IMG/VR virus record: IMGVR_UViG_3300030102_007788
Span: 97,149 to 161,148 of that record
Direction: 5' to 3' (one strand)
Source of the DNA: a virus
DNA length: 64,000 nucleotides
Every line of letters begins with the position of its first letter. Within the stretch, counting starts at the first letter, position 1. The notes beneath the pieces are model-generated. The model was not told where the DNA came from, did no database searches, and worked only from the letters and a program-made list of their open reading frames with translations. This document shows positions 42,206 to 63,574 of the stretch, piece after piece. The translations under genes were made by a program, and so were the position numbers.

Positions 42206-45200
42206 ATGGCAATTACGAGATACGCAGGAGATAGATTTACGACAAACAGCTCGGATACAAAACCGACAGGTGTTCTCGATGGGGCGTATCTTATTGATAC
42301 TGGGAACTTGACCCAGTGGGTGAGGAGAACGGTAGGTGGCAGCTCCCAATGGAATCAATTAGCTGGCGGCGGAGGTGGAGGAGGCACTCCCGGCGGCGCG
42401 AATACTCAGGTTCAGTTTAATAACGCAGGGGCTTTCGGCGGGAATGCCAATTTAACTTTTGACGGCAGTAAGCTTGCCGTAAACGATCTTGCTTTAAGTG
42501 GAATAATTTATGATTCCAACAACTCTATTGGTAATGGGGGTATGGTTCTTACTAACGAGGGAACAACCGGCGTTAATTGGAAAAGTATTGAATCTGTTTT
42601 ATCCGGCGTTGGAGGTTCCGGCGTTGCTAATTATGTAGCTCGTTGGTCTGATGAGGATACTATAACAACTGGAGTTTTAGTTGATGATGCGACGAATGTT
42701 GGTATAGGTACAGCTAGTCCACAACGGTTACTTGCTATAAAAGGGGACTCTAAACATTTTGGAGCTTACGCTACTGACGATAGTCTTTCTGCTTTATTAG
42801 GAACCGATGCTAATGGAGATGGTCAGCTATTGTTAGCAGACCTTAATGGAACCACAAAAATTCTTCTTGAAGCTGAGGCTGACGCTAACAGCTACATAAA
42901 TAATGGCGGTAATTTTGGTTTAGGCACAGCTGCTCCTGCTGCCCCGCTAGACGTCCAATCTGCCAATGGGTCTAGCGTTGGCATCAGGGTGACTGATGGC
43001 CATAAAATGCAGTTTTTAAATAGCTCTAATAACACTAACTCAAATATATATAATAATGGAGCGTCAGGATTAGCTCAATTAGCTTTTCAAATTGCGGGAG
43101 CGACTAAAGTAACTATAATCAATGACGGAAATGTTGGCATAGGAACTACTGCTCCTACTGGTTTATTATCTTTAGCCAAAGGAACTCGCACACTAGATTT
43201 CAAATTGGAAACTAGTCCAGCAACCGGGGACATGGGCGTGCAGATTAGAGCGGGTAGCGGAGACTATATAGGCTTGGCTGGTGGAGGTGGAACGGGAGTA
43301 GGCTTAGTTGTAGACTCAGCTAATCAAGCTGGTTTTGGTACAGGTACTTTTGGTTCTAATAATGTCCTAACAATTACAAACGTAGGTAATAATGCATCCT
43401 ATTCTGCTATCGCTCTTGGTACAGCTACAACGGGTCACGGTAATAGTGAGGGATATTGGATAGGGATGCTAGAGAATGGTCAAGCTTACCTTTGGAATTA
43501 CGAGAATCGGCATATCTTATTTGGCGCAAATAATGCCGAGAGAATGCGTATTACCTCTGTAGGTAATCTTGGCATAGGCCTAACTGTTCCCCTTAATAGA
43601 CTTCAGGTTATGCCTTCTACTTCTGGGGGGAACGCTTCTAACGCATCAGAAGATGCTGCATATTTTGGAGGAAATGAGCTTGGAGGTATAGGTGGTTATA
43701 CAGGAATACGTTTAGGAGGTTTTGGTGCAAGTGGCTACGGAACTTATATACGTTCAGTTAAAACCTCTGCTTACGGAGGTTACTGGAATGAGGCGATAAC
43801 TTTTAGTGTTACCCGAACCGGCACTTCAAGCACGGTAGATGAGGCGATGCGTATTACAGCTGACAGTAATGTTGGCATAGGAACAACTGCTCCAGCTACA
43901 AAATTTCATGTAGAAGACTCAACCGCGAATACTACTGCCACTAAAATAACAGTTCAAGGCGGAAGTCGAGGATTTACTTTAGGAAAAGCTCACACTGCTG
44001 ATAATTATCAACACTTAAAACCTATAACTGATACTGCTATGGCATTGAGGGTCATGCCAAATGGCACTACAGCTAGGGAGGCGTATGTTGAAGTCTGGAA
44101 CAAGGATTTTGAAAACGGCGCTAACTCTACCTCTTGGCATAGAGGAATGTTCTATATTGATGCGTCCAATGATGTCTATCTTCGCGCAGATGGGCTTGGA
44201 ACAGCTGGAAGAGTTTATATAGGCACAGAGAATAATACTCAAACCCTTACTGTTAAAGATGACGGTAATGTTGGTATAGGTACAACAGGTCCTGATTCGA
44301 AGTTAGAAATCTCAGGTGGAAGCTACAATTCATCACTTAAAATAAAAGGCTCGGGTGCTGAGACAGGAATACAGTTTGAAGATAGCGCGGGTAATACAGA
44401 TGGTTATATATATGCAAACGGTGGCATGGTAGGGTTTTTAGACGCAGGTACCCATTGGACAATTCAATGTAAGGATGATGATTATATCAAATTTCTCACA
44501 AATAACGGTACTGAGCATATGCGTATTACCTCTGTTGGTAATGTTGGCATAGGCACAGATAACCCCACTGGTAAATTACAAATAGGCGCTAATTATACAA
44601 TACCGGGAACTGCATATGGCGGTAATGATATTTATATCGCCAACACAGGTAGCCACAGCGACTACGATCCTTATGTTACTAATACTGATGATTTCAGAGC
44701 ATTAATTACTATTTCAGATGCAACTACGGAAGGCCCAACAAAACCCGGTTTAATATTATACAATGACTCTACTACCGCAGGCGGGTTCTCCCCGATGCTT
44801 CTTTTCGCAAAAAGGGAAACTGGATCTAGTCCTTATAAGGCGGCGACGGCAGCTATTTATGCTAGATCACCATTAGGTACGGGGAATGGCGATGGTTGGA
44901 TTGATGGTGAATTAATTTTTGCAACGGCTGGTGCTGCGACGCAAGGCATCCGGCAAAGAATGGTTATTAATAAAGAGGGCCTTGTAGGTATAGGTACAAA
45001 TAATCCGGGTCAAAATTTACAAATTCATCAGGCCGACAGTGACGTTAACTATCTTGAATTTACCAACACTACTGCAACTACAGGGACTCTTGTGGGTTTA
45101 AACGCAGCCGAGGAATTTATACTTTGGCATAGGCACGATTCGGATATGGTTTTCGCTACCAATGCTGTAGAGAAAATGCGTATCGAGAACGGTGGAGACG

Positions 45201-48200
45201 TTGGTATAGGTACAGCTTCCGCAGTGAGCCTACTTCACATTTACTCATCTGCTCCTGAGTTTACAATTCAAGACGGAGGATCATGGGGTACTAACGCAAC
45301 TGGGTACATAAGCCTAAAAGATAATTCGTCTAGCATGGCTCAAATTGGCGTTACTGGTACAGCTGGTCACTTAGATATAAAACAATTAAAAGCAGGAAGC
45401 CTCCGCTTATATACAAATAACTTAGAAAGATTTACAATTTTGTCAAGCGGCAGTGTTGGTATAGGTACAACAAGTCCTAGCGTAAAACTTCATGTGGTAG
45501 GTAGTGGAACCGACGATGGCATTAAGGTGCATTCGGGAACCAATGTTTATCTAGAACTGGACTCAACGGATTCATCTACAACGAGAGAAGTTGCAGCAAA
45601 ATACAAGAACTACAGCACGGGGACTAATTTCTGGTGGACAGGTTTAAATCAGGCATCGCGTTATGATTTTGCGTATGGAACTACTTTTATAAATGCCAAT
45701 ATAAAGTTAAGCATTCTAACTGACGGTAATGTTGGCATAGGAACAGTAACTCCCAACTTTGCTGCTGCGGCTGGAAATACTGTTAAAGGATTAAACATAC
45801 AAAATGTTGGGCAAGATACCCAAGCGAGTCTTCGCTTAACGGGACATAATGCAACTGGAAATCCGGGAGTAGCAACTTATACAGAATTACTTCATGCTGG
45901 AGCTAACCTAAGATTTGATATAAATCATAATGGAACAGTTCGGTTTTCTATTGGTTCTGGCGGAGCTATTACATTCAACAGCGCATTTACCTTTCCAACT
46001 GCAATAGGAAGTGCAGGACAAGTCCTTAAAGTTCCTAGTAGCGGAACTGTTTTGGAGTGGAGCACGGAGACAGGCCCCGTATCGGGAACCGGAACTACTA
46101 ACACTATACCGAGGTGGACGGGTACTGCTTCTCTTGGTGATTCAATTATCACAGTTCCAAGTAATACTTCAGTTCAAATGGCGGGGGAATTAACGCTAAA
46201 CTATACCTCCCCTATTTTAAATATTGGGAAATTAAATACCTCAACAGGAAACGCTAAACTTCGATTTAATAGCAAGAACGGAACGGCATCAAACGCCTTC
46301 GATATACAGTTTGTAAAAAGTGCCACTGAAGACAGGTTGGACTTTTTAGCCGGTGGCGCTACGGCAACAGTTAGTTTCCTAAACAGCGGTCAAGTTGGTA
46401 TAGGAACAACTGCTCCGGATTATCTTCTTCATGTTCAAGGTGCTGGCCCTGATCTTCTCAAACTTAAGAGTACAACCTCTGGTAGTGGCGGTGCACCCAA
46501 GATTCATTTTGAACATTCCAGCGGCGGAACCCAAACGGCTGATATAGTATTTGATCAGTCGGGGCAAAACAAGTTGAAGTTTACTACTTATTACCAGTCA
46601 GCCACAGATGGAAATTTAATACAATTTGCCCCAGCAGACACTGTAGCCATGACAATTCGTGGTGGAACAGGCTCGTCTGATGGTTTTGTTGGCATAGGAA
46701 CGGATGCGCCAGTACAGCAACTCCATGTCCTTGGAGATGCGATGAGATTTGAGCGAGCCAATAATGCAGTAGCTTTACAACTATATAATAATAACGCTTC
46801 TCCCGCTGATGATGCACCATTGGGATACCTCCAGTTCATGGGGAAAGACAACGATGGTACAGCTAGTATAGTTCACGCTGAAGTGCGAGGGGGAGTTCAG
46901 TCTAATACCAATAGTGCGGTTAGTGGGTACTTATCGTTTTTAACAACCAATAACGGAACGGCTGTTACTGAAGCGATGCGTATAAAAGCTGACGGCAGTG
47001 TTGGAATAGCAACAACCAATCCGGCAGCTAAATTAGATGTTCGCGGGAATATTTTAAGAAGTGGATTAACCTATAGTAGTTGGACAAGTAGGAGTATTAA
47101 CACTTTAACTCAAGCTAGCGCTACAATTAACTATATACTTATAGCACCAAAAACTACTATCAACGTAAGATTGAGCGGAAGATTTAAATGCGCTAGGAGT
47201 AATGGTGTTTCTGCCGTTTCAATCGCTCATGCAGATGTAGTTTTTTGTACTGATAACGATGCTAACCCTCAATCTGGAGGAATACATTCTGCTTCTAGTG
47301 ATATACCAAGTTATGGACATGCTAACTTTGAAATAGTAGAGTTAGAATACAGCTCAACAGAATACTACGCTTTAAAGATAAGTCCAAGCGCGTCTTGGAC
47401 AGCGTCTTTCGGGCAAATTGAATTTGAAGGTATTTCTAATAATGTTACTTGGACAAATATTGATTCTGGTAACGTTAGTAATGTTGGAGCTTTCGTCGGC
47501 GGCCAAGCAGTATTCACTTACAACCATGCAAATGTCGGTATAGGAACAAATTCCCCTAATGCAAAATTAGACGTTAGAGGGTCACAAGGCTATTTAAAGT
47601 TTGATACTAGTGGCTCAGATGGCACAATTAAATCAGATTATAATTTAAAACTATATGCGGATGATACCGGAAATAACAGTAGTGGTTATCAAAACATTCA
47701 GTTTTATACTGATGGAGCTAATGAGCGGATGCGAATTGCTCATGATGGCAACATTGGAATAGGAACAACTGATCCTTCTGAAAAGCTTGATGTAGAGGGC
47801 TCTTTAGTTGTAAACGTGGCAAATAGTGGCCTTGGCGAGGAAGGTATATTCTTTAGAAGGGGCTTTAGTGATTCTAATAAATATAATATTTCAATATTGG
47901 CCTATGCTCACGATGGTGCTGGAAATTTTTCTGATGGCATTTCTATAAATGGATATGATGGCGTGTCGTTCTGTACTGGTGCAAGCACTAGACAAGAAAG
48001 AATGCGTATTGTCGGAGGAACGGGTGCAACTAGTGGTTTTGTTGGTATAGGAACAGCTGGCCCCAGCGCACTTTTACATATAAGAAAAATAGATTTAGTA
48101 GATGATTCAAGGAACGCTTTATTACTGCTAGATGGAAAATTTGCTGCGGCTGGCGTTAACTCAGGGGATGAGGTTGGAATTGCATTTAGGGTTGAAAATT

Positions 48201-51200
48201 CTGGGGGCGGCGCACAGCAAACAACTTGTATAACATCGTCTTATCAACCTAACCGCAACAGTTTAAATTTACAACCAAACGGAGGAAATGTTGGAATAGG
48301 AACAAATAACGCTGTTTATAATGTTCACGCGCAGACGACTTCAGCCTCTTTCACTCATAACATAAAATTAAACAAATCCTCAAATGGCGGGGATTATGCT
48401 GAAATTGCATTTCAGTTATGGAGCGGAGCGGGGACTGGCACTAATACATTTGGTGGCTCAGGGACCTCTAGGCCTAGCGTTGTCTTAAGGGCGCTCAATG
48501 AGTCAACAAGCTCAGCTGCAGGAGCGTTAGTTGTAGGAACGTTTACTGGTGGAGCAACCAACTCAACTTTAACAGAAAAATTCAGAATAGCATCTGATGG
48601 TAATGTTGGTATAGGTACAAATGCTCCAGATTCTTTATTGATGGTTTATAAATCTGGGGCAGATTCAATAATTCACGTAAGGGGAGCGTCCAATGGCGGA
48701 GATGCCAGAGTCAGGATTAATGGATATAATAGTTCAGAACTTTATCTTGACAGGAATGGACTAGGCCGATTCGCTTTTAGACGAACAACAGGAACGGATG
48801 ATCTTTCACTTCTTAAATTAAACGATAATTATACAGATAATTCCACAATTATGTTTTGGGATTATAGCAGCGGCAATGTCGGTATAGGGACAAATAATCC
48901 GGGTGCCAGACTGCATGTCCATCTTACTGGTAGCGCGGGAAGTTTTTCTAATATAGGTTTATTTAGGGCTGGCCCAGACTCTAATTACTCAGGAGCTGAA
49001 ATTTTTGTAGGTCAACAGGGGAATAGTCGCGGCTTAGTAATTCGTGGAGGTAGAGGTACAGGTGATCAAGCTTTAGCACATTTTTATCTTAACCAGTCTG
49101 GAGGAACGATCCCTAGCACAACTCAAGATCATGTAATGACGTTCCTCCAAGGGGGAAAAGTTGGCATAGGGACAACGCAACCCGGAGTAGACTTAGATGT
49201 AAACGGTAAATTATCTATTGGATCTACAAATGCCAGCTTTGATTTATATAACAACGGAACTACATATTTAAATGGGAACGTAACAGTAGATGCAACTTTG
49301 AGCGTAACCGGGGGAGTTGCTGGAGTTAGCGTGATTAATTCCAGCACTACTGATTCTGCTGCCGCTGACTCTTATTTAAATATTTTCAAAACCGCTGGTT
49401 CCGGTGGGGGATCAAGAGCAACCTTAAGAGTTGGTTATGATGCTGCTAGTTGTTTTCAAGTTTCACGAATAAGAAACAACGCAAACATTTATATAAACTC
49501 GCGACAGAGTGGAAGCGAGATGGTCTTTCAGATTGCCGACAATGAACAAATGGCATTAAGCTCAGGTCAATTAAAGTTCCCAGACAACAAAAAAATTATA
49601 ATGGGAGCTAGTAATGACCTGCAAATTTATCATGATGGTAATAATTGGATTGATGCGAATGGTGCAGGGGATCTATATTTAAGAAATTTAAATTCAAGTG
49701 GTGATGTTATTGTACAAGCAGGTGCAAGTGGTGATGTATATATTAAAGTTCATTCTGGAGAAACTGCTCTTAAAGCTACTAATAATGGCGCAGTAGAACT
49801 TTACTATAACAACACCAAGACGTTTCAGACTACAGCTAGCGGGGTAAAATTAACACAATCTACTAGTTATTTATTCGGCGGGGATAGTGAAATATTAGCA
49901 GGGCAGGATTCTGGTGGTTATTATTTTGCCACCGGTAATGGTCAAAATGTAAACAAGCCAATTTTCATTGGGGATAATGCTTCTTATATAAAATTCAAGA
50001 CTTCAGATTCGGAGGTAGTAAGAATAGATGCTAGTGGTAATGTTGGTATAGGCACAACAAATCCGGGATCGTACAAACTATTAGTAAGCGGGAATAGTTA
50101 TCTTGACGGCACTGCTTACGTTGACGATGCATTAACTGTTGACGGTTATATCAATTTTGAATCAGTAGGTGATTATCTCACGTTTTATGGTAACTCTAAT
50201 GCCCACCATTCTATTTCCTCTCGTAATTCTTCGGGTAATCCAGATGACGATATAAGAATTAACACATACGGGGGGCTTTTCATAAATCTAGATAGTAATG
50301 GTAATGACAGTTCAGAATCACATTCAAGTTTCCAAATAGGTAGGCACGCGGGTACGGGGGCAGTCTCAGCTAGTGACTTATTTTTAAATTTATCAGGTGA
50401 AACAGGAAAGTTAAGATTATATAAATACGGCTCAGGAACTCATACAGGAACTGCTGCTTATAAATTATCTGTAGATTCATCCGGGAATGTTATAGAGACC
50501 GCAATCGGGGCCGGAGCAGTAGATGGTTCAGGTACGGCCAATAAGGTGACTAAGTGGACCGATGCTGATACCATCGGCAATTCTCAGATAACTGACAACG
50601 GAACGTCAGTAGGAATTAATGTCTCTCCAAATACCGCTAATAAGCTGGAAGTAAATGGCCAACTTAGAGCTACGACTGGAATGTTTGGTAATTCGTCATT
50701 GGGTAATACCGCCGTTAAACCAATTCACATTAAGTACGGAGGAACTGCAGAACTTCGGCTTGAAGATTCTACAAGTTCAAACTATGTCTATGACATTAGT
50801 TGTGACTTTACAAATGGATTTAGAATAACAGATGTTACTAGCAGTTTAGTTCCTTTTGCGATTGAGAAAGCTACCGGTTCTGTTGGTATAGGAACTACAA
50901 GTCCAGACTATAAGTTACATGTTGCAGCAAATGGAGGTTCTACTAATGGTATAAAAGTAATCAATAACAGCGCCAGCACATCCGCTAGAGCAGTAGTTAG
51001 TTTGTTCAACAATTCGGGTTCTGCGTCTGGCCTTATTTTGTCTGGCAGCAATTACACAGGAGTTAGTGGTTGGGCTAATCGGCTTGTGATAAACACTGAT
51101 TCAGGTATTTCAAATGGAATAATGGTTCGTCCTTCAACAGGAGGATTCAAAGTGTCAGCCAGTGGAGTCAATAATAATGATTTATTTGTATCCTCCAACG

Positions 51201-51838
51201 GTAATGTTGGAATAGGCACCGCAACACCCAGAACTAACCTTCACGTTTACGGCACGGGGGTAGATAATGGACTAGCTAAGGTTAGAATCGGCGGTAACAC
51301 CAATAATACAGCTATGCTAGAGTTAGCAGAAACTGAAAACAATTCAGGAGTCATGACTTATGGATTCTCCATAAGAGCTGATGGTGGAAGCGGTGGAGGT
51401 TCTACTAATGATTTTCAAATAAGATACCATGACAATAGTACTTCTGGCGTGACCGGTTTCCACATGGAGAGGAGTGATGGAAACATTGGTATAGGAACCA
51501 TTAGTACTGGGTATAAGTTAAGTGTTGGGGGTAACGTTTACATTTCGGGAACTTTAACTGAAGCTTCGAGTTTAGCTATAAAAGAAAACGTCGAAACATT
51601 TGAGCCGAGTTTAGATATAATAAACAAAATACGTCCAGTAAAATATGATAAGAAAACAACCGGTAAAAAAGAAATCGGTTTAATCGCGGAAGAACTCGCA
51701 GAACTCTTCCCAGAATTAGTTGAAAAGGATAAAAACGGTAACCCTTCGGGTGTAAATTACAGTCGAGCAGTAACCGTGCTGTTGGGAGGATTTAAAGAAC
51801 TCTATAAAGAAGTTCAAGAATTGAAAAAAAGGATTTAA
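42206..51838 (+). CDS. Giant tail fibre with GNVGIGT repeats and S74 chaperone, 3210 aa
   Basis: The N-terminus (MAITRYAGDRFTTNSSDTKP, then a Gly run and GANTQVQFNNAGAFGG) is typical of fibres. About 27 copies of a GNVGIGTTxPxxKLxV motif recur every 60-180 residues, each joining two beta-rich segments, often with ERMRI just before. The last about 120 residues are a peptidase S74 intramolecular chaperone (SSLAIKENVETFEPSLDIIN ... GLIAEELAELFPELV ... NYSRAVTVLL) with the Ser-x4-Lys pair needed for self-cleavage; it trimerises the fibre and then cuts itself off. At 9.6 kb it takes 15 percent of the window. Confidence 0.9.
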   Translation: MAITRYAGDRFTTNSSDTKPTGVLDGAYLIDTGNLTQWVRRTVGGSSQWNQLAGGGGGGGTPGGANTQVQFNNAGAFGGNANLTFDGSKLAVNDLALSGIIYDSNNSIGNGGMVLTNEGTTGVNWKSIESVLSGVGGSGVANYVARWSDEDTITTGVLVDDATNVGIGTASPQRLLAIKGDSKHFGAYATDDSLSALLGTDANGDGQLLLADLNGTTKILLEAEADANSYINNGGNFGLGTAAPAAPLDVQSANGSSVGIRVTDGHKMQFLNSSNNTNSNIYNNGASGLAQLAFQIAGATKVTIINDGNVGIGTTAPTGLLSLAKGTRTLDFKLETSPATGDMGVQIRAGSGDYIGLAGGGGTGVGLVVDSANQAGFGTGTFGSNNVLTITNVGNNASYSAIALGTATTGHGNSEGYWIGMLENGQAYLWNYENRHILFGANNAERMRITSVGNLGIGLTVPLNRLQVMPSTSGGNASNASEDAAYFGGNELGGIGGYTGIRLGGFGASGYGTYIRSVKTSAYGGYWNEAITFSVTRTGTSSTVDEAMRITADSNVGIGTTAPATKFHVEDSTANTTATKITVQGGSRGFTLGKAHTADNYQHLKPITDTAMALRVMPNGTTAREAYVEVWNKDFENGANSTSWHRGMFYIDASNDVYLRADGLGTAGRVYIGTENNTQTLTVKDDGNVGIGTTGPDSKLEISGGSYNSSLKIKGSGAETGIQFEDSAGNTDGYIYANGGMVGFLDAGTHWTIQCKDDDYIKFLTNNGTEHMRITSVGNVGIGTDNPTGKLQIGANYTIPGTAYGGNDIYIANTGSHSDYDPYVTNTDDFRALITISDATTEGPTKPGLILYNDSTTAGGFSPMLLFAKRETGSSPYKAATAAIYARSPLGTGNGDGWIDGELIFATAGAATQGIRQRMVINKEGLVGIGTNNPGQNLQIHQADSDVNYLEFTNTTATTGTLVGLNAAEEFILWHRHDSDMVFATNAVEKMRIENGGDVGIGTASAVSLLHIYSSAPEFTIQDGGSWGTNATGYISLKDNSSSMAQIGVTGTAGHLDIKQLKAGSLRLYTNNLERFTILSSGSVGIGTTSPSVKLHVVGSGTDDGIKVHSGTNVYLELDSTDSSTTREVAAKYKNYSTGTNFWWTGLNQASRYDFAYGTTFINANIKLSILTDGNVGIGTVTPNFAAAAGNTVKGLNIQNVGQDTQASLRLTGHNATGNPGVATYTELLHAGANLRFDINHNGTVRFSIGSGGAITFNSAFTFPTAIGSAGQVLKVPSSGTVLEWSTETGPVSGTGTTNTIPRWTGTASLGDSIITVPSNTSVQMAGELTLNYTSPILNIGKLNTSTGNAKLRFNSKNGTASNAFDIQFVKSATEDRLDFLAGGATATVSFLNSGQVGIGTTAPDYLLHVQGAGPDLLKLKSTTSGSGGAPKIHFEHSSGGTQTADIVFDQSGQNKLKFTTYYQSATDGNLIQFAPADTVAMTIRGGTGSSDGFVGIGTDAPVQQLHVLGDAMRFERANNAVALQLYNNNASPADDAPLGYLQFMGKDNDGTASIVHAEVRGGVQSNTNSAVSGYLSFLTTNNGTAVTEAMRIKADGSVGIATTNPAAKLDVRGNILRSGLTYSSWTSRSINTLTQASATINYILIAPKTTINVRLSGRFKCARSNGVSAVSIAHADVVFCTDNDANPQSGGIHSASSDIPSYGHANFEIVELEYSSTEYYALKISPSASWTASFGQIEFEGISNNVTWTNIDSGNVSNVGAFVGGQAVFTYNHANVGIGTNSPNAKLDVRGSQGYLKFDTSGSDGTIKSDYNLKLYADDTGNNSSGYQNIQFYTDGANERMRIAHDGNIGIGTTDPSEKLDVEGSLVVNVANSGLGEEGIFFRRGFSDSNKYNISILAYAHDGAGNFSDGISINGYDGVSFCTGASTRQERMRIVGGTGATSGFVGIGTAGPSALLHIRKIDLVDDSRNALLLLDGKFAAAGVNSGDEVGIAFRVENSGGGAQQTTCITSSYQPNRNSLNLQPNGGNVGIGTNNAVYNVHAQTTSASFTHNIKLNKSSNGGDYAEIAFQLWSGAGTGTNTFGGSGTSRPSVVLRALNESTSSAAGALVVGTFTGGATNSTLTEKFRIASDGNVGIGTNAPDSLLMVYKSGADSIIHVRGASNGGDARVRINGYNSSELYLDRNGLGRFAFRRTTGTDDLSLLKLNDNYTDNSTIMFWDYSSGNVGIGTNNPGARLHVHLTGSAGSFSNIGLFRAGPDSNYSGAEIFVGQQGNSRGLVIRGGRGTGDQALAHFYLNQSGGTIPSTTQDHVMTFLQGGKVGIGTTQPGVDLDVNGKLSIGSTNASFDLYNNGTTYLNGNVTVDATLSVTGGVAGVSVINSSTTDSAAADSYLNIFKTAGSGGGSRATLRVGYDAASCFQVSRIRNNANIYINSRQSGSEMVFQIADNEQMALSSGQLKFPDNKKIIMGASNDLQIYHDGNNWIDANGAGDLYLRNLNSSGDVIVQAGASGDVYIKVHSGETALKATNNGAVELYYNNTKTFQTTASGVKLTQSTSYLFGGDSEILAGQDSGGYYFATGNGQNVNKPIFIGDNASYIKFKTSDSEVVRIDASGNVGIGTTNPGSYKLLVSGNSYLDGTAYVDDALTVDGYINFESVGDYLTFYGNSNAHHSISSRNSSGNPDDDIRINTYGGLFINLDSNGNDSSESHSSFQIGRHAGTGAVSASDLFLNLSGETGKLRLYKYGSGTHTGTAAYKLSVDSSGNVIETAIGAGAVDGSGTANKVTKWTDADTIGNSQITDNGTSVGINVSPNTANKLEVNGQLRATTGMFGNSSLGNTAVKPIHIKYGGTAELRLEDSTSSNYVYDISCDFTNGFRITDVTSSLVPFAIEKATGSVGIGTTSPDYKLHVAANGGSTNGIKVINNSASTSARAVVSLFNNSGSASGLILSGSNYTGVSGWANRLVINTDSGISNGIMVRPSTGGFKVSASGVNNNDLFVSSNGNVGIGTATPRTNLHVYGTGVDNGLAKVRIGGNTNNTAMLELAETENNSGVMTYGFSIRADGGSGGGSTNDFQIRYHDNSTSGVTGFHMERSDGNIGIGTISTGYKLSVGGNVYISGTLTEASSLAIKENVETFEPSLDIINKIRPVKYDKKTTGKKEIGLIAEELAELFPELVEKDKNGNPSGVNYSRAVTVLLGGFKELYKEVQELKKRI

Positions 51839-54800
51839 ATGGCATCATTAGTAAGTACAACTGTAAATGGAGATTTAAAAGTAACAGGAAGCAGCAACCT
51901 TTTCTTTGAGGGTTCTGCTAGTTCAAACACTTTTGAGCCGGGGACTAGAATCTATGGCGCGGGGATAACTCTTACTGGCGGCGCTTATACTTCTGTTTTT
52001 GAGTATACCGTTCCCGGCGGGTTAGCTGGAAATTTCAGATTTTTTGTTAAAGGAACGACTGGTAACGTTGTTGTGCCTACCCAAGTAGATGTTGTATTAA
52101 ACCATTCTAAGGATATCACTATAAAGTCTCAGACTGGAAACTATACTCCGCTTCATGTTAAAGTGCTTACAAACAACAATGAGGACTGCTTAGTTCAATT
52201 AAAAGCTGATACTTCTGGTAATGCAAACGTTACTGTATACATTGACGTTATAGCTTTCGGCGATGGGTCTGTTAGTTTTAGCAGCTTCGGAAGCTATACA
52301 GGAACTTCCCTAGAACATAAATGTAATTTTGGTTTCTCTTTCAGTACAATTGACAATACCAATGCATCTAAATTCGTAATGGATGGCGGAAATGCTGACG
52401 GCGGCAGATTAGGTATAGGAACAAATAGCCCCGCTCAACCATTGGATGTTTTGGGTAAAGTTTCAATTAATTCTGATGGGACATTGAATTGGGGAGCGGC
52501 CCGAGACTATGGCAGATTAACTTGGGATACAACTAACTCAAGAGCTATTGTTAGAGGAGAATCTGGCAAAAATTTATCTTTAGGAGCTAACGGTACGCAA
52601 GACTACGTATTTATTAAAACTGACGGTAACGTTGGCATAGGCACCACTGGCCCCGAAGCACGACTTGATCTTCACGCTGGAAACATGCTAATAGGTGATT
52701 CATATTTAGATCATCATAGCAGTAATGATAACTATGGATTACAAATTAAATCTACAGATGCTACTCAGGTTGGGTTAGAGTTAAGGTCTAACGGCGGAAG
52801 TAACGCTGCTGGAACATGGCACGCGACACTGTATGGAGCGGGCAGTTATTATGGCTTTCTTGATGCCCCGTGGGGCGCCTGGGATGTCAGAAAAACTGTT
52901 AACGGTGCATTGCAGATAGACCAAGGTAGCGGGCTAGAGACTGTATTGACAACTGCTACGACTCCTACATGGGCAAATCTGGGGGCAGGCTATCGGACTA
53001 ATTATACTTTAGGATTTCGAGCTCCATCAAGTGCTTATGCTGGACTTTATTTTGAGGGGACGAATGGGGGTAGCGCTGGATACTTTTTAATTAGAGGTAC
53101 AAGTGATACTGGTGTTTATACAGCAGAAGGTATAACTCTAGTTGCTGATCAAGGCTGGCTGACTTTAGCGCAACGAACTACAAGCTCAAAAGGTGTCCGT
53201 ATAATGACTGGAAGCAGCACTTCTCGAGATAGGATAACTGTTTCAACTGATGGCGATATTGTGTTGGGCGTCCCGACAAATAGTTTAGCCCCAGCAACAA
53301 CCACAACACTTAAAGGATATTCTGTTCAATATGATTCAGGAGGCGCGGGAGAGCGACTAAGTAATACCGGATTTTTAACTTGGCACACCGGAGGGAGTTG
53401 GACGGGTAACGAAAGAATGTGGGCGCTTACTAACGCTAGCAATATGGCTGGGGGAGGAGGTCCAAGATTCACGCTTTTAAGAGGAACCGCTAACAACGTT
53501 GTCCCGACGCTTGGTAATAATGGAACTCTTGGAACTAATACTGTGATAACATGTTTTTGGACAAATAATGGAGATTTTCATAACGCCGGCCCTGTTAGTA
53601 TAGTAACTCAAACACTGCCAAGCTCTAACAAATTTCACGTTTCATCTAACCAAGCGGGAAGCGCAAGCAAGTCCAGTATTGCAGTAGTGTCTGTAGCTGA
53701 CAATTCTACGTTTAATAATGGTACTGCCGCACTTCACGTTATCAACAGTGGAAATAGAGGAACAGCGGGTAATTCAATTGGTTCAGATTTATTACGGCTG
53801 GAATTCAGTAATGGCATCCATACTATTTTTAATAAAGACGGGTCAGTTGGTATAGGAACAACAAATCCGGGACAAAAACTTGATGTCGTCGGAGCCGGGA
53901 ACTTTACTGGCAACCTGTACCTTGCTGGAAATAGTGCAAGTCGATTTTATTTTGGGTCAAAACGTGCATTGGAGGGACAAATTATCAATAACTTTCTGGA
54001 CGTAGGTGAGGATTTTGGTAGCACTAGAATGAGATCCTCAACGTCTGTCTACCCCACTAACAGCATAACGCTAGGCACATCGTCAAGCCGATGGTCTACC
54101 ATCTATGGTGCGGCTGGAAATTTTAGCGGGACAGTTACAGCAACTACATTCTCCGGAACTCTTTCTGGTACTGCCGACAAATCAAACATGGTTACTGGTA
54201 GCGCATTTGCGACAACAGGATCACCCAGTAGCGTTTTAGAATATCAACAAGCCGCCAGCATAACTGATACAAAATTAGCTCCTACTTCAGACTGGTATAA
54301 TACTATCAGAATGGGACATGGCAATCCATATAGTTATTATAGTAATACTATTGCAATGCAGATGACTGGTACTGGTGCTGGTCAAATTAAAACACAGCGA
54401 ATTGCTAACAATGTCGCGCAAGGTTGGAGAACAGTTTGGGACTCAGGTAACGATGGTTCTGGGTCGGGTCTGGACGCAGATAAATTAGATGGTTTAGAAT
54501 ATAATCATTTCGCTTATAGGGCTTCAGGCGGTACTGGATATTATATAGTAAGTAGCTGGTTGCAGTTTAGTGGAACTTACGGACCTTATTGGAACGCGGG
54601 TGTAGGAGCAGGCTGGCACATATATCCTGCGAGCACTGATTCGATGAGATGGCGTGCAAGTAGCAGTGCCGTTAGGTCAAACTTACGCTTGGATGTAGGC
54701 TCTAGTAACTATGGTAACTTATGCGCTTCAACGACCATGGGGTATGGTTTGAGAAAAGCGAATGTCAATCTATCAACCGACAGCGACTGGGATTTATTAA

Positions 54801-56419
54801 TAAACACTGATGGTAACGTTGGTATAGGAACAACGAACCCGAGCCAAAAACTTGACGTTAATGGAAACACGGAACTTAACGGAGCGGTGAATATAGTTGG
54901 TGGCGGATGGCTTTCTTTTGACGGAGAGCAGGGGCTCAGAAAATCTGGTAGCTGGCTTTATTTAGCTGACGGGGGATTCACAAGTGGATTGTATACTCGT
55001 ATAAAAATAAGGGTAGACGGATATGATGTTTCTCCATATCAAGATACCGCAAGTGTCACGTCAGCCACAACGCTAGGTATATCTACTAAACGATGGTATA
55101 ATGTCTACTCTCAAGCTGGGAACTTTAGTGGCACCGTGACAGCCGGTGGAATAGCCTTGGGAGCCGGTAATCTAACAACTACTGGCAACATAAGCGGAAA
55201 TGGATCAGGCTTGACCGCTTTAAATGCTTCAAACATTGGCTCAGGCACAATTAACGTCGCTAGATTAGGTAGCGGCGCAACAAGTAGTAAATTCTTAAGG
55301 GGAGATAATACTTGGCAAACTATTAGCAGTGGATCAAGCCCAAATAACTCTACCATTACTATAAGCACAGGAACTGGTATTACTGGGTCTACTAGTTTTA
55401 CCCTTAATCAAGCATCCAATCAAACTATTAGTTTGGCATGTGATTTGGGTGAGTTGCCTGATATGACTCAAAGTTGGTCTAGTAATGATGAGTTTATTGT
55501 TTTGGATAGTGGATCGCAAAAAAGAAAGCGGTCTGCAGAGATTTTTGGTTCCAACGCTTTTAATAGTACTACTATACCAACAAATAATAATCAGCTAACT
55601 AATGGCGCGGGCTACACAACGAATACAGGTACAATGTCTAGCTGGAATTGGGGTATAAACTCTGAATCCACGGGAGCTAACATAGGCAATGGAGAGTTAG
55701 TTAGAATAATAGCGGGAACAAATGTAACAGTTAGTAGAAGTGGAAATGATGTTACTGTCAGTGCTAGCGGCGGCGGGTCAACTCCAAATAACAAAACCAT
55801 AACACTGTCAGCAGGAAATGGTTTAAGTAATGGTGGTGCTTTTACTACTAACCAAAGTTTTAACGAAACGATTACTTTTAACATTACTGGTCTTAATTCA
55901 AGCGGTAACGGCTCGACGGTAATGAAGCATATATCTGTAGGCGCTGGCACCGCACAGACTTCATCTAATGGTATCAGCTTTAGTCAAAGCGGAGGCATTA
56001 GCATATCGGCAAGTGGAAGCACGGTTTCATTTAGTTCGTCTTCAGCTTCTGATTACAGGCTAAAGAAAAACGTAACCGACTTTAACTCAGAGTCTTGGAC
56101 AAAAGTTAAAAGCGTTAGCTGTCGCAAATTTGATTTCGATGCTGAAAAATTTGCTCAAGCCATGCAGGACGATTATACTATTCCTCGTCCTGCATCTTAC
56201 GGAGGAAGAATAGGATTTATTGCTCACGAGCTTGAAGCTTTAGGTATTGATGGAGCGGTAGAGGGCGAAAAAGATGGCGTAGATGAAAACGGAATACCTA
56301 TATACCAAAAGGTAAGTTATACGACTCTTGTGCCTGTTTTATGGGGTGCTCTAAACGAAGCGATAAGAAAAATAGAAATATTGGAAAGTAAAGTCCAAGC
56401 CCTTGAAGATAGTAGTTAG
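51839..56419 (+). CDS. Second long tail fibre with S74 chaperone, 1526 aa
   Basis: It starts one base after the first fibre's stop. It has four clear GIGT repeats (such as NVGIGTTGPEARLDL), SGTVTATTFSGTLSGTADK-like segments, and a YHxFAYR-like region near residue 890. It ends in a second S74 domain: SASDYRLKKNVTDFNSE with the Ser-x4-Lys pair and GFIAHELEALGIDGAV. Both fibres probably assemble on one tail; whether they are alternative or sequential receptors is not known. Confidence 0.88.
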   Translation: MASLVSTTVNGDLKVTGSSNLFFEGSASSNTFEPGTRIYGAGITLTGGAYTSVFEYTVPGGLAGNFRFFVKGTTGNVVVPTQVDVVLNHSKDITIKSQTGNYTPLHVKVLTNNNEDCLVQLKADTSGNANVTVYIDVIAFGDGSVSFSSFGSYTGTSLEHKCNFGFSFSTIDNTNASKFVMDGGNADGGRLGIGTNSPAQPLDVLGKVSINSDGTLNWGAARDYGRLTWDTTNSRAIVRGESGKNLSLGANGTQDYVFIKTDGNVGIGTTGPEARLDLHAGNMLIGDSYLDHHSSNDNYGLQIKSTDATQVGLELRSNGGSNAAGTWHATLYGAGSYYGFLDAPWGAWDVRKTVNGALQIDQGSGLETVLTTATTPTWANLGAGYRTNYTLGFRAPSSAYAGLYFEGTNGGSAGYFLIRGTSDTGVYTAEGITLVADQGWLTLAQRTTSSKGVRIMTGSSTSRDRITVSTDGDIVLGVPTNSLAPATTTTLKGYSVQYDSGGAGERLSNTGFLTWHTGGSWTGNERMWALTNASNMAGGGGPRFTLLRGTANNVVPTLGNNGTLGTNTVITCFWTNNGDFHNAGPVSIVTQTLPSSNKFHVSSNQAGSASKSSIAVVSVADNSTFNNGTAALHVINSGNRGTAGNSIGSDLLRLEFSNGIHTIFNKDGSVGIGTTNPGQKLDVVGAGNFTGNLYLAGNSASRFYFGSKRALEGQIINNFLDVGEDFGSTRMRSSTSVYPTNSITLGTSSSRWSTIYGAAGNFSGTVTATTFSGTLSGTADKSNMVTGSAFATTGSPSSVLEYQQAASITDTKLAPTSDWYNTIRMGHGNPYSYYSNTIAMQMTGTGAGQIKTQRIANNVAQGWRTVWDSGNDGSGSGLDADKLDGLEYNHFAYRASGGTGYYIVSSWLQFSGTYGPYWNAGVGAGWHIYPASTDSMRWRASSSAVRSNLRLDVGSSNYGNLCASTTMGYGLRKANVNLSTDSDWDLLINTDGNVGIGTTNPSQKLDVNGNTELNGAVNIVGGGWLSFDGEQGLRKSGSWLYLADGGFTSGLYTRIKIRVDGYDVSPYQDTASVTSATTLGISTKRWYNVYSQAGNFSGTVTAGGIALGAGNLTTTGNISGNGSGLTALNASNIGSGTINVARLGSGATSSKFLRGDNTWQTISSGSSPNNSTITISTGTGITGSTSFTLNQASNQTISLACDLGELPDMTQSWSSNDEFIVLDSGSQKRKRSAEIFGSNAFNSTTIPTNNNQLTNGAGYTTNTGTMSSWNWGINSESTGANIGNGELVRIIAGTNVTVSRSGNDVTVSASGGGSTPNNKTITLSAGNGLSNGGAFTTNQSFNETITFNITGLNSSGNGSTVMKHISVGAGTAQTSSNGISFSQSGGISISASGSTVSFSSSSASDYRLKKNVTDFNSESWTKVKSVSCRKFDFDAEKFAQAMQDDYTIPRPASYGGRIGFIAHELEALGIDGAVEGEKDGVDENGIPIYQKVSYTTLVPVLWGALNEAIRKIEILESKVQALEDSS

Positions 56420-57570
56420 TGGCATCCATTGAATTAAATTTAATAGATTACCCAAAGGTAAAAGTTGATTCTGAAAAGGAGCTGCTTGTAAAAATCCGCG
56501 AAGAATCTGGCGAATATTACATAGAACAAAAAATAAAAAAAGGCACTGTCAGCCTTAAGATGCCTATTGTTAGAGAATGGATCATCGAAGCTTTCAACGG
56601 CGATAAAAAAGTTTTTAATTACCAATACAAATTAGAAGGGCAAATAGTATTCATTAGATTTGTTAATACTGCTCTAGGTGATGCTATTGTATGGCCAGAG
56701 TACATTGAAAAATTTAGAAAGAAATATAAATGCAAAGTCTATGTAAAGGTAAGATACCCGGAGCTATTTGAAAAAAGTTATCCTAATATTACTTTTCTTA
56801 AAAAAGGTCAGAACTTAGAGAAGATTGACGTACAGGTAAACGCAAGTGTTATATTCGGCGGAGTGCCGATGCTTCAATGGCCCACTACAATACTTAATTT
56901 AAAAAAAGAAGAATTACGCCCAAAGATAGACAAGCCAAAATTTAAAAGAAATATTGAAAAGAAATATGTTTGTATTGCTACTCACGCCAGTTCATATCAT
57001 AAATACTGGCTGCGAAAGAACGGATGGAACGATGTAATAAAATATCTTAAAGATTTAGGTTATGAAGTTCTTTGTATAGATGGTGATGACGTAGCTGATT
57101 ATGGGTTAGTAAAAATGCACGTACCTGACGGTTGTATAAAAAGAACAGGAAAAAGACCTCTATCTGAAAGAATTAACGACTTACATTTCTGCGACTTTTT
57201 CATAGGTCTTGGTTCGGGTTTATCTTGGTTAGCTTGGGCTGTTGGTAAACCTGTTGTTATGATAGCGGGGTTTAGCGATGAAGAATGTGAATTTGAAAAT
57301 CCGTACAGAGTTATAAACAAAGATGTTTGTCATGGTTGCTGGGGGAAGCATGAACATGAAGAAGTAATAGATAGGTTTATAAAAAACTCAGAAGGAGTTG
57401 TTTGTAGATTTAAAAGCGGTATAGCAGATCCTTTCTATTGCCCAAAACATTACGGCACATCAAGACAGCACGAATGTTCCCGCGAGATAACTTTCGAAAT
57501 GGTTAAAGAAAAGATTACTAAGTTAGTATCCTCATTTTCTCATGGCCAACAACAACCTGTGGGTCAATAA
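56419..57570 (+). CDS. Autotransporter-type O-heptosyltransferase, 383 aa
   Basis: The GTG start overlaps the fibre's stop (TAGTG). The N-terminal about 75 residues are an extra domain. Then FVNTALGDAIVWPEYIEKFR, ELFEKSYPNITF and the GT-B C-terminal part HFCDFFIGLGSGLSWLAWAV, GKPVVMIAGFSDEECEF, NPYRVIN and CHGC...YCPKHYGTSRQHECSREIT match the autotransporter heptosyltransferase family (TibC/Aah-like), in which Cys residues bind a metal and ADP-heptose is the donor. The known targets are repetitive autotransporter adhesins. Position right behind the repetitive fibres suggests they are its substrate. Confidence 0.85.
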   Translation: MASIELNLIDYPKVKVDSEKELLVKIREESGEYYIEQKIKKGTVSLKMPIVREWIIEAFNGDKKVFNYQYKLEGQIVFIRFVNTALGDAIVWPEYIEKFRKKYKCKVYVKVRYPELFEKSYPNITFLKKGQNLEKIDVQVNASVIFGGVPMLQWPTTILNLKKEELRPKIDKPKFKRNIEKKYVCIATHASSYHKYWLRKNGWNDVIKYLKDLGYEVLCIDGDDVADYGLVKMHVPDGCIKRTGKRPLSERINDLHFCDFFIGLGSGLSWLAWAVGKPVVMIAGFSDEECEFENPYRVINKDVCHGCWGKHEHEEVIDRFIKNSEGVVCRFKSGIADPFYCPKHYGTSRQHECSREITFEMVKEKITKLVSSFSHGQQQPVGQ

Positions 57571-58204
57571 AGATTTTAAATCCTGCTTTTTTTGCAAGGT
57601 GGCAGAATGCAACATCTTCAGAACAGTAATCTTCTAAATCGCCGATTTGTTTTTTAAGCTGACAGAACCAAGGGTATTCAACTTTTTCAAATACTCCCTT
57701 TTTAATTAACATGAAACCCATGCCGTTGTAATCAACTTCCATCAAACCTTTATGGTTAGCAACGTCTTGTTGTTGCAAGAAATAAAATGAGCCGTTCTTT
57801 TTATAATACTTTTGATCCCAGTCCTTAACGCAGGCGAAGTTCTGCCCGTTCTCAGTTTTATAAATTCCAGAAACAATATCTTGATCGTAAGACATTAGCT
57901 TTTGTATTTGTTCAAAGCCAAAAACAATATCTGAATCGATCCACATTATATATTCGTAATCGATTTTACCATCAAAGGGGGCTTGGTGGATGCCTCGTCG
58001 TACATCGGCGCCAAGGCACAGGCATCTTGCGTAACTTACCATCGAAGAATACTTGTTGGAAAGCAATGGGTTGATTCCATTCTTGATACACTTAAGTAAA
58101 GTGTCTGTCCAACAATTTAAAAAGTTTCCTGAGAACTCCCTACCGGGAATTGCAAAAATGATATTCTTCATATGCAGGAAATATTCTACCGATATTTTAG
58201 ACAT
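57518..58204 (-). CDS. GT-A type glycosyltransferase-like protein, 228 aa
   Basis: MKNIIFAIPGREFSGNFLNC starts the domain, then YEYIMWIDSDIVFGFEQI carries the DxD-type metal and sugar-nucleotide site, followed by GMGFMLIKKGVFEKV and CSEDVAFCHLAKKAGFKIFI, the usual second half of small GT-A enzymes. It converges with and overlaps the heptosyltransferase gene by 53 bases. An inner ATG at 58171 is a possible start. Acceptor unknown; possibly adds to the heptose on fibres or acts on the host surface. Confidence 0.75.
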   Translation of the reverse strand: MSKISVEYFLHMKNIIFAIPGREFSGNFLNCWTDTLLKCIKNGINPLLSNKYSSMVSYARCLCLGADVRRGIHQAPFDGKIDYEYIMWIDSDIVFGFEQIQKLMSYDQDIVSGIYKTENGQNFACVKDWDQKYYKKNGSFYFLQQQDVANHKGLMEVDYNGMGFMLIKKGVFEKVEYPWFCQLKKQIGDLEDYCSEDVAFCHLAKKAGFKIFIDPQVVVGHEKMRILT

Positions 58205-60362: not shown

Positions 60363-61853
60363 ATGAAAAAGCCCAAATATACAACCACATTTAGCTCGGT
60401 AATCAAACCAGTTGTATCTGAGGAAAAAGACAAATATCTAGCTTTGGCTTCTATGGTCGAGTTGGAAAAGTTTTTACCACAAGTAGATGTAGAAAAAAAC
60501 GTTGATTTGTTACCCGTAGCTTTTAACGCATTCGTCGCCAACAGAGTAAATAAGAATGGTGATGTAGTTGATACCGATACGGCCATCGCTATGCATGACA
60601 ACTTTGTTAATAAACCAATTAACATTGAGCACAACAGAAAATCAGTAGTTGGAACTATTCTAACCGCTGGCTTTTCGCGTTTTGGTAGCGACGAGCCAGT
60701 AACTAAAGAAGAGCTTAAAGATACTAAAGAGCCATTCAATGTCACTTTAGGTGGCGTAGTTTGGAAAATAGTAGATCAAAATCTAGCTGATAAAATTGAA
60801 AGCTCAAGCGATCCTACCAGTAATGAATACATGGGTATTAGCGCAAGCTGGGAGTTAGGATTTAGTGATTATAATTTAGTCGTTCTTGAAGGTGAAGAGA
60901 AAAATATAGAAAACGGTTTGGAAATCTCTGATCCAGCAGAAGTTGAAAAATACGCTGAAAAACTAAAAGGTTTTGGCGGCCAAGGTAAGTTTGACGAAAA
61001 CTCAAGCATTTACCGAAAAGTAATCAACGAAGTAGTTCCGTTAGGTATCGGTTTAACTGAAAACCCTGCTGCCGATGTGCAAGGGGTATTAACTGAAAAA
61101 GGAACTGAAGAACATAAAGCTTTGGCGAAGGAGTCTCTTGAAGAAGAAACAATTTCCCAAAATCCAAACAATACTGTAAAAACAAAGAAAGTAGAAGCTA
61201 TGAAAATAGAAAATCTAAAAGACATATCGGATGAGTCTCTACAGACTCTGACTGCTTCTGCTATTCATGAGTTTATTCAGGAAAGCCTTAAGAAAGCGTC
61301 TGAAGAGTTTAGTGCTCAGAATGCTGAAAAAGAGGAATCCTTGAAAGATGCTCGTGAACAGCACGAGACGCTCTCCAAGGAACATGATTCCTTGAAGACG
61401 CAGTTAGAAGACATAAAGGCTCAGTTGGAAAAGCTTGAGGCCGAAAAGGCTGAAGCTGAAAAGTTGGAAATGTTTAATCAAAGAATGGCCTCTTTTGATG
61501 AGAGATATGCTTTGAATGACGAAGACCGTAAGGTTATCGCCTCTCAAATCAAAGATCTCGATGAAGAATCCTTCGCAGAATTTGATAAAACTATTTCTGT
61601 ACTTCTTTCTACCAAAACTCATTCAGCTGTTGAAGCCTCTCAGGCCGATCCAGAAGAAGAGGAAGAGACTCAGGAAGAAGAGCAGGCTGAAGAAGCATCC
61701 GCTTCTGCAGTGTCGGAGGTTGTTGAGCAAGCAGTAGATAATGCAAAGAGTGAGACAGTTAACATTCCTGCATCTGCTCCCGCTGAAGAGCCTACAATCT
61801 TTGAGAAATATGGCAAAGCTTTTGCCATGGATCAATTTGATTTTAAACCTTAA
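60363..61853 (+). CDS. Prohead protease fused to scaffold, 496 aa
   Basis: Residues about 30-250 form a prohead protease-like domain: NAFVANRVNKNGDVVDTDTA, KPINIEHNRKSVVGTI (probable catalytic His) and NEYMGISASWELGF (probable catalytic Ser), then IGLTENPAADVQGV. From about residue 275 to 400 a long coiled coil (EKEESLKDAREQHETLSKEH ... QLEDIKAQLEKLEAE) resembles a capsid scaffold. The acidic C-terminal tail ends IFEKYGKAFAMDQFDFKP. Protease-scaffold fusions cut themselves and the capsid during maturation. Cutting sites were not looked for. Confidence 0.75.
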   Translation: MKKPKYTTTFSSVIKPVVSEEKDKYLALASMVELEKFLPQVDVEKNVDLLPVAFNAFVANRVNKNGDVVDTDTAIAMHDNFVNKPINIEHNRKSVVGTILTAGFSRFGSDEPVTKEELKDTKEPFNVTLGGVVWKIVDQNLADKIESSSDPTSNEYMGISASWELGFSDYNLVVLEGEEKNIENGLEISDPAEVEKYAEKLKGFGGQGKFDENSSIYRKVINEVVPLGIGLTENPAADVQGVLTEKGTEEHKALAKESLEEETISQNPNNTVKTKKVEAMKIENLKDISDESLQTLTASAIHEFIQESLKKASEEFSAQNAEKEESLKDAREQHETLSKEHDSLKTQLEDIKAQLEKLEAEKAEAEKLEMFNQRMASFDERYALNDEDRKVIASQIKDLDEESFAEFDKTISVLLSTKTHSAVEASQADPEEEEETQEEEQAEEASASAVSEVVEQAVDNAKSETVNIPASAPAEEPTIFEKYGKAFAMDQFDFKP

Positions 61854-62491: not shown

Positions 62492-63574
62492 ATGAAATTA
62501 AAACTTAAAAATACTCCAGAGCAAGTTGAACTGATTAAGGCTATGGGTTCTAAGAATCCTGAAGTCTCTCGCCCCGCAACTGAAGCTTTTGCAGCTTTTA
62601 TCGGGCCGGTTGTTCAACAGGTTTTGCAGCAGGCTAATACCGCTGCATATCTTTATACTGACGTAGAATACGACGAAGATGATAACCCAAGTTATCCTCT
62701 TGATTTGTTTTACGAGCAGAACGGTAAGGATAACTATATCACCATTTACTCTCAGCAAATGGCTGGTGGTCTTCCTTCTTCGCAAATTGCTGGCAATGCA
62801 GAGCTTAAGGTCTCAACCTACAAGCTGGACAGCGCAGTTAGCTTCCTCAAAAAGTATGCTCGTAAGAGCCGCTTGGACGTGGTAAGCAAAGCTATTGAGC
62901 GTATGTCTAACGAGATTGTTGTAAAACAGGATCGTAACGCTTGGGCTGTTGCTCTTAAGGGTCTTGCAGAAGGTAAGGGTAAGTTTGGTACTGGTAGTGC
63001 TGGTGACAACGTTATCAATGCTAGTGCTGGTGCTTTTGGTCTTGCTGACATCAACTCAATGATGACCAAGATGAAGAGAATTAATGCTTCTTACGCTGAC
63101 GGTACTCCTACCGCTGCTTATTCTAAGGGTCTGACTGATATCTTCACTTCTGCTGAAGTTGTTGAAGACATTAGAGCAATCGCTTACAACCCATTCAGCA
63201 ACAGTGCTGAGCAGGTTGGAGATATTGTAAAAGACGAAATGTATAAGGCGGCTGGTGCAAACTCCATCTTTGGTATTAACATCGTTGATCTCTATGAGCT
63301 CGGTAACGGTCAAAAATATAACACATTGTATACTGCAATGGGTGGTACTTTGACTGGTGTTCAGGAAATCATTGTTGGTGTTGATAGATCAGCTGAAGCT
63401 TTTGTTCGCCCTGTTGCTCGCAACTCTGAAACTGGAAGCACATTTACTGCTCTTCCAGATGATCAGTTCGTTCAACGTCAGGACAAAACTGGCTTCTATG
63501 GCGGCTTGGAAGAGGGACGTGTCCTTCTTGATGCTCGCGCCATCGTTGGTCTTCGCAAAGACGTAACTAGCTAA
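62492..63574 (+). CDS. Major capsid protein, 360 aa
   Basis: Place after protease-scaffold, length, GC-richer well-adapted codons and the predicted fold point to an HK97-type major capsid protein: an N-terminal helix, DNPSYPLDLFYEQNGKDNYI extended loop, KKYARKSRLDVVSKAIERMS spine helix, and C-terminal VGVDRSAEAFVRPVARN and FVQRQDKTGFYGGLEEGRVL. AAAGGAG precedes the ATG by about 9 nt. It is followed by a strong terminator. Confidence 0.8.
   Translation: MKLKLKNTPEQVELIKAMGSKNPEVSRPATEAFAAFIGPVVQQVLQQANTAAYLYTDVEYDEDDNPSYPLDLFYEQNGKDNYITIYSQQMAGGLPSSQIAGNAELKVSTYKLDSAVSFLKKYARKSRLDVVSKAIERMSNEIVVKQDRNAWAVALKGLAEGKGKFGTGSAGDNVINASAGAFGLADINSMMTKMKRINASYADGTPTAAYSKGLTDIFTSAEVVEDIRAIAYNPFSNSAEQVGDIVKDEMYKAAGANSIFGINIVDLYELGNGQKYNTLYTAMGGTLTGVQEIIVGVDRSAEAFVRPVARNSETGSTFTALPDDQFVQRQDKTGFYGGLEEGRVLLDARAIVGLRKDVTS

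Follow-up and report, generated by a model that had tools for sequence, protein, structure and literature searches.

The closest described systems are the bacterial AAH-AIDA-I and TibC-TibA pairs, in which, as described in PMC4358343, an enzyme is encoded beside a giant surface protein that is repetitive and has a high content of small polar residues. In enterotoxigenic E. coli, TibC uses ADP-D,D-heptose and adds heptoses to Ser residues of repetitive passengers (PMC4358343). Virion glycosylation has also been described for viruses, including capsid and tail tube glycans in mycobacteriophages (work cited in PMC12619734 and PMC12894461) and suggested virion glycoproteins in XacN1 (PMC5852040); phage transferases are thought to decorate virion proteins in these cases, but no TibC-type enzyme is named in the relevant parts of these sources. 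Here we describe an open reading frame (ORF) at 56419..57570 (+ strand, GTG start, 383 amino acids) in a window of 64,000 nucleotides, positions 97,149 to 161,148 of the 170-kb marine phage record IMGVR_UViG_3300030102_007788 (G000). Based on family match, fold model, and residue mapping, it is predicted to encode a TibC/AAH-type (BAHT, TIGR04414) protein O-heptosyltransferase, and it directly follows two giant fibre genes. The locus thus resembles the bacterial pairs in placing the enzyme gene beside a giant repetitive protein, but the phage has neither an autotransporter nor a secretion barrel, and the role of acceptor would fall to an assembled virion fibre. Self-glycosylation of the virion fibres is the best reading of this arrangement, in which we infer the donor, the acceptor sites, and the benefit.

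Sequence and a modelled structure together confirm the predicted product as a TibC/AAH-type enzyme, in agreement with the first-pass annotation. The TIGR04414 model (hepto_Aah_TibC, autotransporter strand-loop-strand O-heptosyltransferase) matches at 2.4e-84 with 283.4 bits (cut-off 200) over profile positions 36–373 of 374, and the sole solved relatives found by sequence in the PDB are the TibC structures 4rap and 4rb4 (3.7e-50; 32–34% identity). An AlphaFold2 model based on 36 sequences has a pLDDT of 86.2, with residues 313–336 below 50. Foldseek places TibC first for this model (E 1.3e-36, TM 0.86 and 0.84), and the structure comparison with TibC that had been suggested earlier yields a close fit in VIA-align (Z 40.2, rmsd 2.1, 361 residues aligned). 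The next family there is that of the GT9 heptosyltransferases (Z 21.4), in a comparison that covers only the 1000 best folds from Foldseek, so that the absence of other families from it is not evidence. Residues 1–381 of the model align to TibC residues 21–399, with both the N-terminal beta-barrel and the GT-B catalytic domain present. Membership among the lipopolysaccharide (LPS) heptosyltransferases (WaaC/WaaF/RfaQ, GT9) was rejected, as all equivalog scores fall far below their cut-offs (RfaQ 29.4 vs 467; heptosyltransferase I 22.6 vs 185.3; heptosyltransferase III 20.5 vs 170.2).

The likeness to TibC extends from the whole-length fold and N-terminal barrel to the active site, for which residues were mapped by printed pairwise alignment. 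In TibC, D110 is the catalytic base, while an Arg reads the adenine, a Trp contacts heptose O4, and a Lys binds phosphate (PMC4358343). D110 corresponds to D88 of the phage protein (56680..56682, + strand), and the donor-binding residues K230, R286, and W305 correspond to the identical residues K195, R251, and W270. TibC T226 is replaced by S191, a Ser also found in 16 of 40 bacterial rows. The metal-binding Cys set reported earlier is complete, with C339, C342, C358, and C370 of TibC matched by C304, C307, C341, and C353 in a predicted iron-finger region (57328..57477, + strand). Every one of the 67 viral and 40 bacterial rows in the tree set described below keeps D110, K230, W305, and the four Cys, and R286 is retained in 55 of the 67 viral rows. 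The residues of the TibC dodecamer thumb tip, F265 and V266 (which act with F368), become L230 and V231, and so remain hydrophobic, but F368 is H351; this tip is mostly polar in the viral rows of the tree, yet Leu-Val in the window protein.

The transferase gene is closely joined to the gene of fibre 2 (51839..56419, + strand, 1526 amino acids), which we propose as the acceptor from its genomic context. The overlap noted in the first-pass annotation amounts to a single base: the G that ends the TAG stop of fibre 2 also begins the GTG start of the transferase gene, giving a TAGTG junction (56417..56421, + strand) that is letter-identical in L001, the closest relative (91%). Translational coupling of the transferase with fibre 2 would be expected from such a junction. 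No terminator-like site was found on the + strand between fibre 2 and the end of the transferase gene, and consensus promoter scans gave nothing informative on the transferase. Between the window and L001, the transferase genes differ with a dN of 0.041 and a dS of 0.463, and this low dN relative to dS indicates that the gene is maintained under purifying selection.

Fibre 1 (42206..51838, + strand, 3210 amino acids) is a second candidate acceptor. The description of both fibres as giant and rich in Ser, Thr, and Asn was correct: these residues make up 27.9% of fibre 1 and 31.5% of fibre 2, compared with a mean of 17.9% (standard deviation 4.3) in the 35 other ORFs of the window. When Gly is included, the fibres (41.7 and 45.2%) fall within the range of the proteins that neighbour TibC-type genes in bacteria. 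The tens of repeats that had been ascribed to both are found in fibre 1, which contains 23 [VIL]GIG motifs at a spacing of 72–294 amino acids, but not in fibre 2, which contains only four. The S74 (endosialidase-type) chaperone domain assists fibre assembly, and a C-terminal Peptidase_S74 region passes the Pfam cut-off of 22 bits in fibre 1 (36.1 bits; residues 3123–3172, 51572..51721, + strand) and is marginal, just below the cut-off, in fibre 2 (21.9 bits; residues 1404–1468, 56048..56242, + strand). The locus was also considered as a heptosylated autotransporter system of the AIDA-I/TibA type and rejected as such, its neighbours being the S74-type fibres and a convergent glycosyltransferase-like gene.

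The slot behind fibre 2 varies within the lineage. The terminase, the convergent gene, the end of fibre 2, and the genes at 62492–63574 and 60363–61853 served as queries for relatives; many lineage members matched, and the slot is visible in only four besides G000 (L001, G001, G002, and L305). A TibC-type gene occupies it in G000 and L001, two closely related records, and these are where the TibC-fibre arrangement is seen within the lineage. Their transferases are 91% identical and their fibre ends 89%, whereas fibre 2 as a whole is only 44% identical. In L305, the slot contains a GT4-like transferase that is unrelated to TibC and homologous to phage proteins in which GT4 is fused to TibC domains (E 3.9e-36 to L005, with domains read from the similar P0005). 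In G001, whose terminase is 85% identical and whose fibres are similar, fibre 2 has a different end and is followed by a 123-amino-acid ORF that has no Pfam match. G002 encodes a 2524-amino-acid fibre followed by an 86-amino-acid ORF and a 200-amino-acid ORF cut by the contig end, the latter with no Pfam match at E 1 and no relative among the collected loci. A transferase is therefore present in three of these five slots, and it belongs to either of two unrelated families. On the other flank lies the conserved convergent gene (57518..58204, - strand; phrog_1574), which has a weak GT2/GT21 resemblance by profile matches and overlaps the 3' end of the TibC-type gene by 53 bases. It is 89–95% identical in the three relatives in which it was found, irrespective of slot content (91% between the window and G001).

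Relatives of the enzyme are common in viruses. A profile scan of viral contigs matched at least 600 stretches, at least 531 of which encode TibC relatives, and 79 loci were kept; among bacteria, 298 of 407 stretches encode relatives, and 80 loci were kept. In a tree of 108 rows, rooted at the midpoint for drawing only, the clade that includes the window gene comprises 60 viral rows and 1 bacterial row (split support 100/98), while TibC lies in the other part of the tree with 40 bacterial rows (TibC counted) and 7 viral rows. By its sequence, the window gene belongs to a large branch of the family in which viral members predominate. In viruses, many copies form part of proteins of 650–1736 amino acids with additional GT4, GT9, and FkbM domains, and others occur in tandem and lack the N-terminal barrel. 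Giant multi-domain glycosylation proteins are encoded at L003:5158-10359 (GT4-GT4-FkbM-TibC), L004:1623-6833, and L016:6193-9309 (GT9-GT4-TibC), and genes for a carbamoyltransferase, SDR, ADH, E1/transketolase, and PfkB adjoin the TibC-type genes of L006 and L016.

Among BFVD predicted structures, a TibC fold is found in A0A6J5SVC1, named "Glycosyltransferase Aah/TibC", and in A0A7S9XE01 of Virus NIOZ-UU157 (TMq 0.79 each). These viral proteins share the fold with the window protein but contain it as a domain of longer proteins, of 924 and 985 residues, respectively, and their names are database labels; the label "Aah/TibC" thus already exists for a phage protein, as a name that carries no functional claim. 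One named isolate, Microcystis phage Mel-JY01 (PP395634.1), was found with a TibC-like gene, which is labelled FkbM. No report of a phage TibC-type enzyme was found in the open-access PMC literature, a search that did not extend to subscription papers or preprints.

The neighbours of the viral genes were analysed in 66 of 67 non-redundant clusters, the remaining one having been dropped as its glycosyltransferase ORF was missing from the gene list. Of the PHROGs matched by 130 direct neighbours, those seen most often are for glycosyltransferases (15 and 8 members), the tail sheath (8), and tail fibres (about 4). Collagen-like fibre families adjoin TibC-type genes in L127, L146, L149, L165, L167, and L173; the neighbours in L151, L172, and L133 are not structural by PHROGs, and in many loci of the wider kin (e.g., L012) the TibC cluster is near PhoH and terminase genes rather than fibres. 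Large proteins rich in Ser, Thr, Asn, and Gly account for 20 of 259 viral genes at most two genes from TibC versus 16 of 674 farther away, and the bacterial relatives likewise adjoin such proteins (39/236 versus 4/531, from 69 of 80 loci, the other 11 having no glycosyltransferase ORF in the gene list); Fisher tests on these counts assume independence between genes, an assumption that does not hold. Fibre genes, detected by regular expression only, were present in 24 of the 66 loci and adjoin TibC in 17 of these. The null model in which TibC is moved predicts 6.1 (0/5000 reached the observed value), while one that fixes TibC and shuffles the fibre genes, which we trust more, predicts 9.7 (p 0.001).

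Based on the enzyme class and fold, the fibre and sheath genes beside viral relatives, and the variable slot behind the fibre, self-glycosylation is the best reading, and we regard it as reasonably probable that a cytoplasmic TibC-type protein O-heptosyltransferase is made together with the fibres and heptosylates them. The transferase would be translated in a coupled manner with the tail fibres, remaining in the cytoplasm, and ADP-heptose would be taken from the LPS pathway of the host during infection. Ser residues along the repetitive shafts of the fibres could then receive single heptoses ahead of virion assembly, a step that would precede fibre trimerisation and S74-assisted assembly. The result would be a glycosylated fibre, possibly benefiting the phage through shaft stability, receptor binding, or shielding. 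Such a pathway would apply the chemistry of TibC on repetitive passengers to a partner that is a fibre rather than an autotransporter, which is the simplest reading of a locus in which enzyme supply is coupled to a giant acceptor. The earlier claim that the phage heptosylates its own fibres therefore stands as to enzyme class, intact active site, and fibre coupling, while the fibre acceptor derives from genomic context only and the heptose from conserved residues.

Several observations weigh against this reading. In the phage enzyme, the TibC stereoselectivity residue P300 is replaced by Gly, and F368 by His (H351). The AlphaFold2 model of fibre 2 residues 150–560, built from 4 sequences, has a pLDDT of 31 and is unusable for comparison with the TibA fold. 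The 144 kb of G001 contain no match to TibC despite its similar fibres, indicating that the fibres of this lineage do not require the transferase. When one locus per glycosyltransferase group is used, fibre adjacency is 6 of 10 with 3.8 expected (p 0.11), and this collapse of lineages, from p 0.001, weakens the adjacency statistics. Finally, searches of G000 for the ADP-heptose pathway components SIS_2 (GmhA-type), NTP_transf_3, and PfkB gave no match, and its one CTP_transf_like protein scores 49.5 bits against rfaE_dom_II (cut-off 181.5). The nearest solved relatives of this protein are ethanolamine-phosphate and glycerol-3-phosphate cytidylyltransferases. A complete heptose pathway inside G000, a record that may be incomplete, was rejected, as this single protein is not assignable to HldE; with no complete pathway recognised, the donor would have to come from the host. 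The protein in question, a nucleotidyltransferase of 140 amino acids, is encoded behind a cupin gene at G000:C1:83233-84008 (L041:3633-4408).

The sugar itself may differ from heptose. We infer heptose from the conserved ADP- and heptose-binding residues, namely the Arg, Trp, and Lys whose roles are described in PMC4358343, and their retention argues against an enzyme with the TibC fold that employs a different donor, such as an activated sugar from the sugar cluster of the phage, or that starts a larger fibre glycan. However, the Gly at the selectivity position, found in 48/67 viral versus 8/40 bacterial rows, and the GDP-sugar genes of the phage are compatible with a different donor or with glycan extension. 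Outside the window, a sugar and glycosyltransferase cluster at G000:C1:55803-67659 (L039, L040) includes GalE-like epimerase, radical SAM-like, and GT4 genes, as well as genes for proteins resembling GDP-fucose synthase (460.8 bits, cut-off 500) and GDP-mannose dehydratase (354.8 bits, cut-off 415); FkbM had no match in G000. The fusion of TibC domains to GT4, GT9, and FkbM in relatives also fits a different or larger glycan. On balance, we consider this alternative unlikely.

A similarly unlikely alternative is that the acceptor is another virion protein, such as the sheath, capsid, or a decoration protein, and that the place behind the fibres only serves to ensure late expression. In other phages, TibC-like genes directly adjoin the tail sheath (phrog_23, 8/130 direct neighbours; checked singly in L136, L149, and L165) or lie near a Hoc-like decoration protein (L137). 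Sheath proteins of 1317 and 1101 amino acids (L136:11882-15835 and L149:11132-14437) are encoded directly downstream of TibC-like genes and match the sheath family only over approximately their last 300 residues; the large remainder may be a surface domain that is glycosylated. However, the window gene has a base in common with the fibre stop and accompanies a conserved fibre end, and G001 has similar structural genes but no TibC. This genomic context leads us to favour the fibre as the acceptor.

A target on the host surface, such as the LPS core or an adhesin, for example to block superinfection, is improbable. The GT9 fold is common to TibC and the LPS heptosyltransferases, and phage glycosyltransferases that alter host serotype are described in PMC12619734, but the LPS heptosyltransferase models score far below their cut-offs, the gene sits in a fibre operon, and the TibC-type N-terminal barrel and iron finger are present. 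It is highly improbable that the gene is a passenger (moron) that came to lie behind the fibres without any function in the virion, as might be suggested by the differing slot content of the five lineage members, given the purifying selection on it, the occurrence of transferases of two unrelated families in the slot, and the non-random neighbours of viral TibC-type genes.

The G000 record includes genes for a phage terminase, a portal-like protein, and an ERCC4-type nuclease, which are arranged in conserved order. The motif TTGAC-N6-CCC, picked after the result of the consensus promoter scan was seen, occurs eight times in the window versus 1.4 expected, a count reached by 0/100 shuffles. All of its sites (2457, 3469(-), 6117, 6447, 8147(-), 11848(-), 12341, and 16754) are within the first 17 kb, and it may be an early promoter element specific to the phage.

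In bacteria, adhesins are known substrates of protein heptosylation. We tentatively suggest, as a possibility somewhat short of an even chance, that the virus-specific radiation of TibC-type enzymes provides a general toolkit for virion glycosylation, with which unrelated tailed phages may decorate fibres, collagen-like fibres, and sheaths with heptose-based glycans. In some lineages, the transferase could be exchanged as a cassette together with the fibre tip, so that the type of glycan would contribute to host range or to the evasion of defence. A large viral branch of these enzymes next to tail fibres and sheaths would mean that phages build sugar-coated virions by the chemistry of bacterial adhesin maturation, with consequences for how virions bind receptors, how stable they are, and how defence or immunity recognises them.

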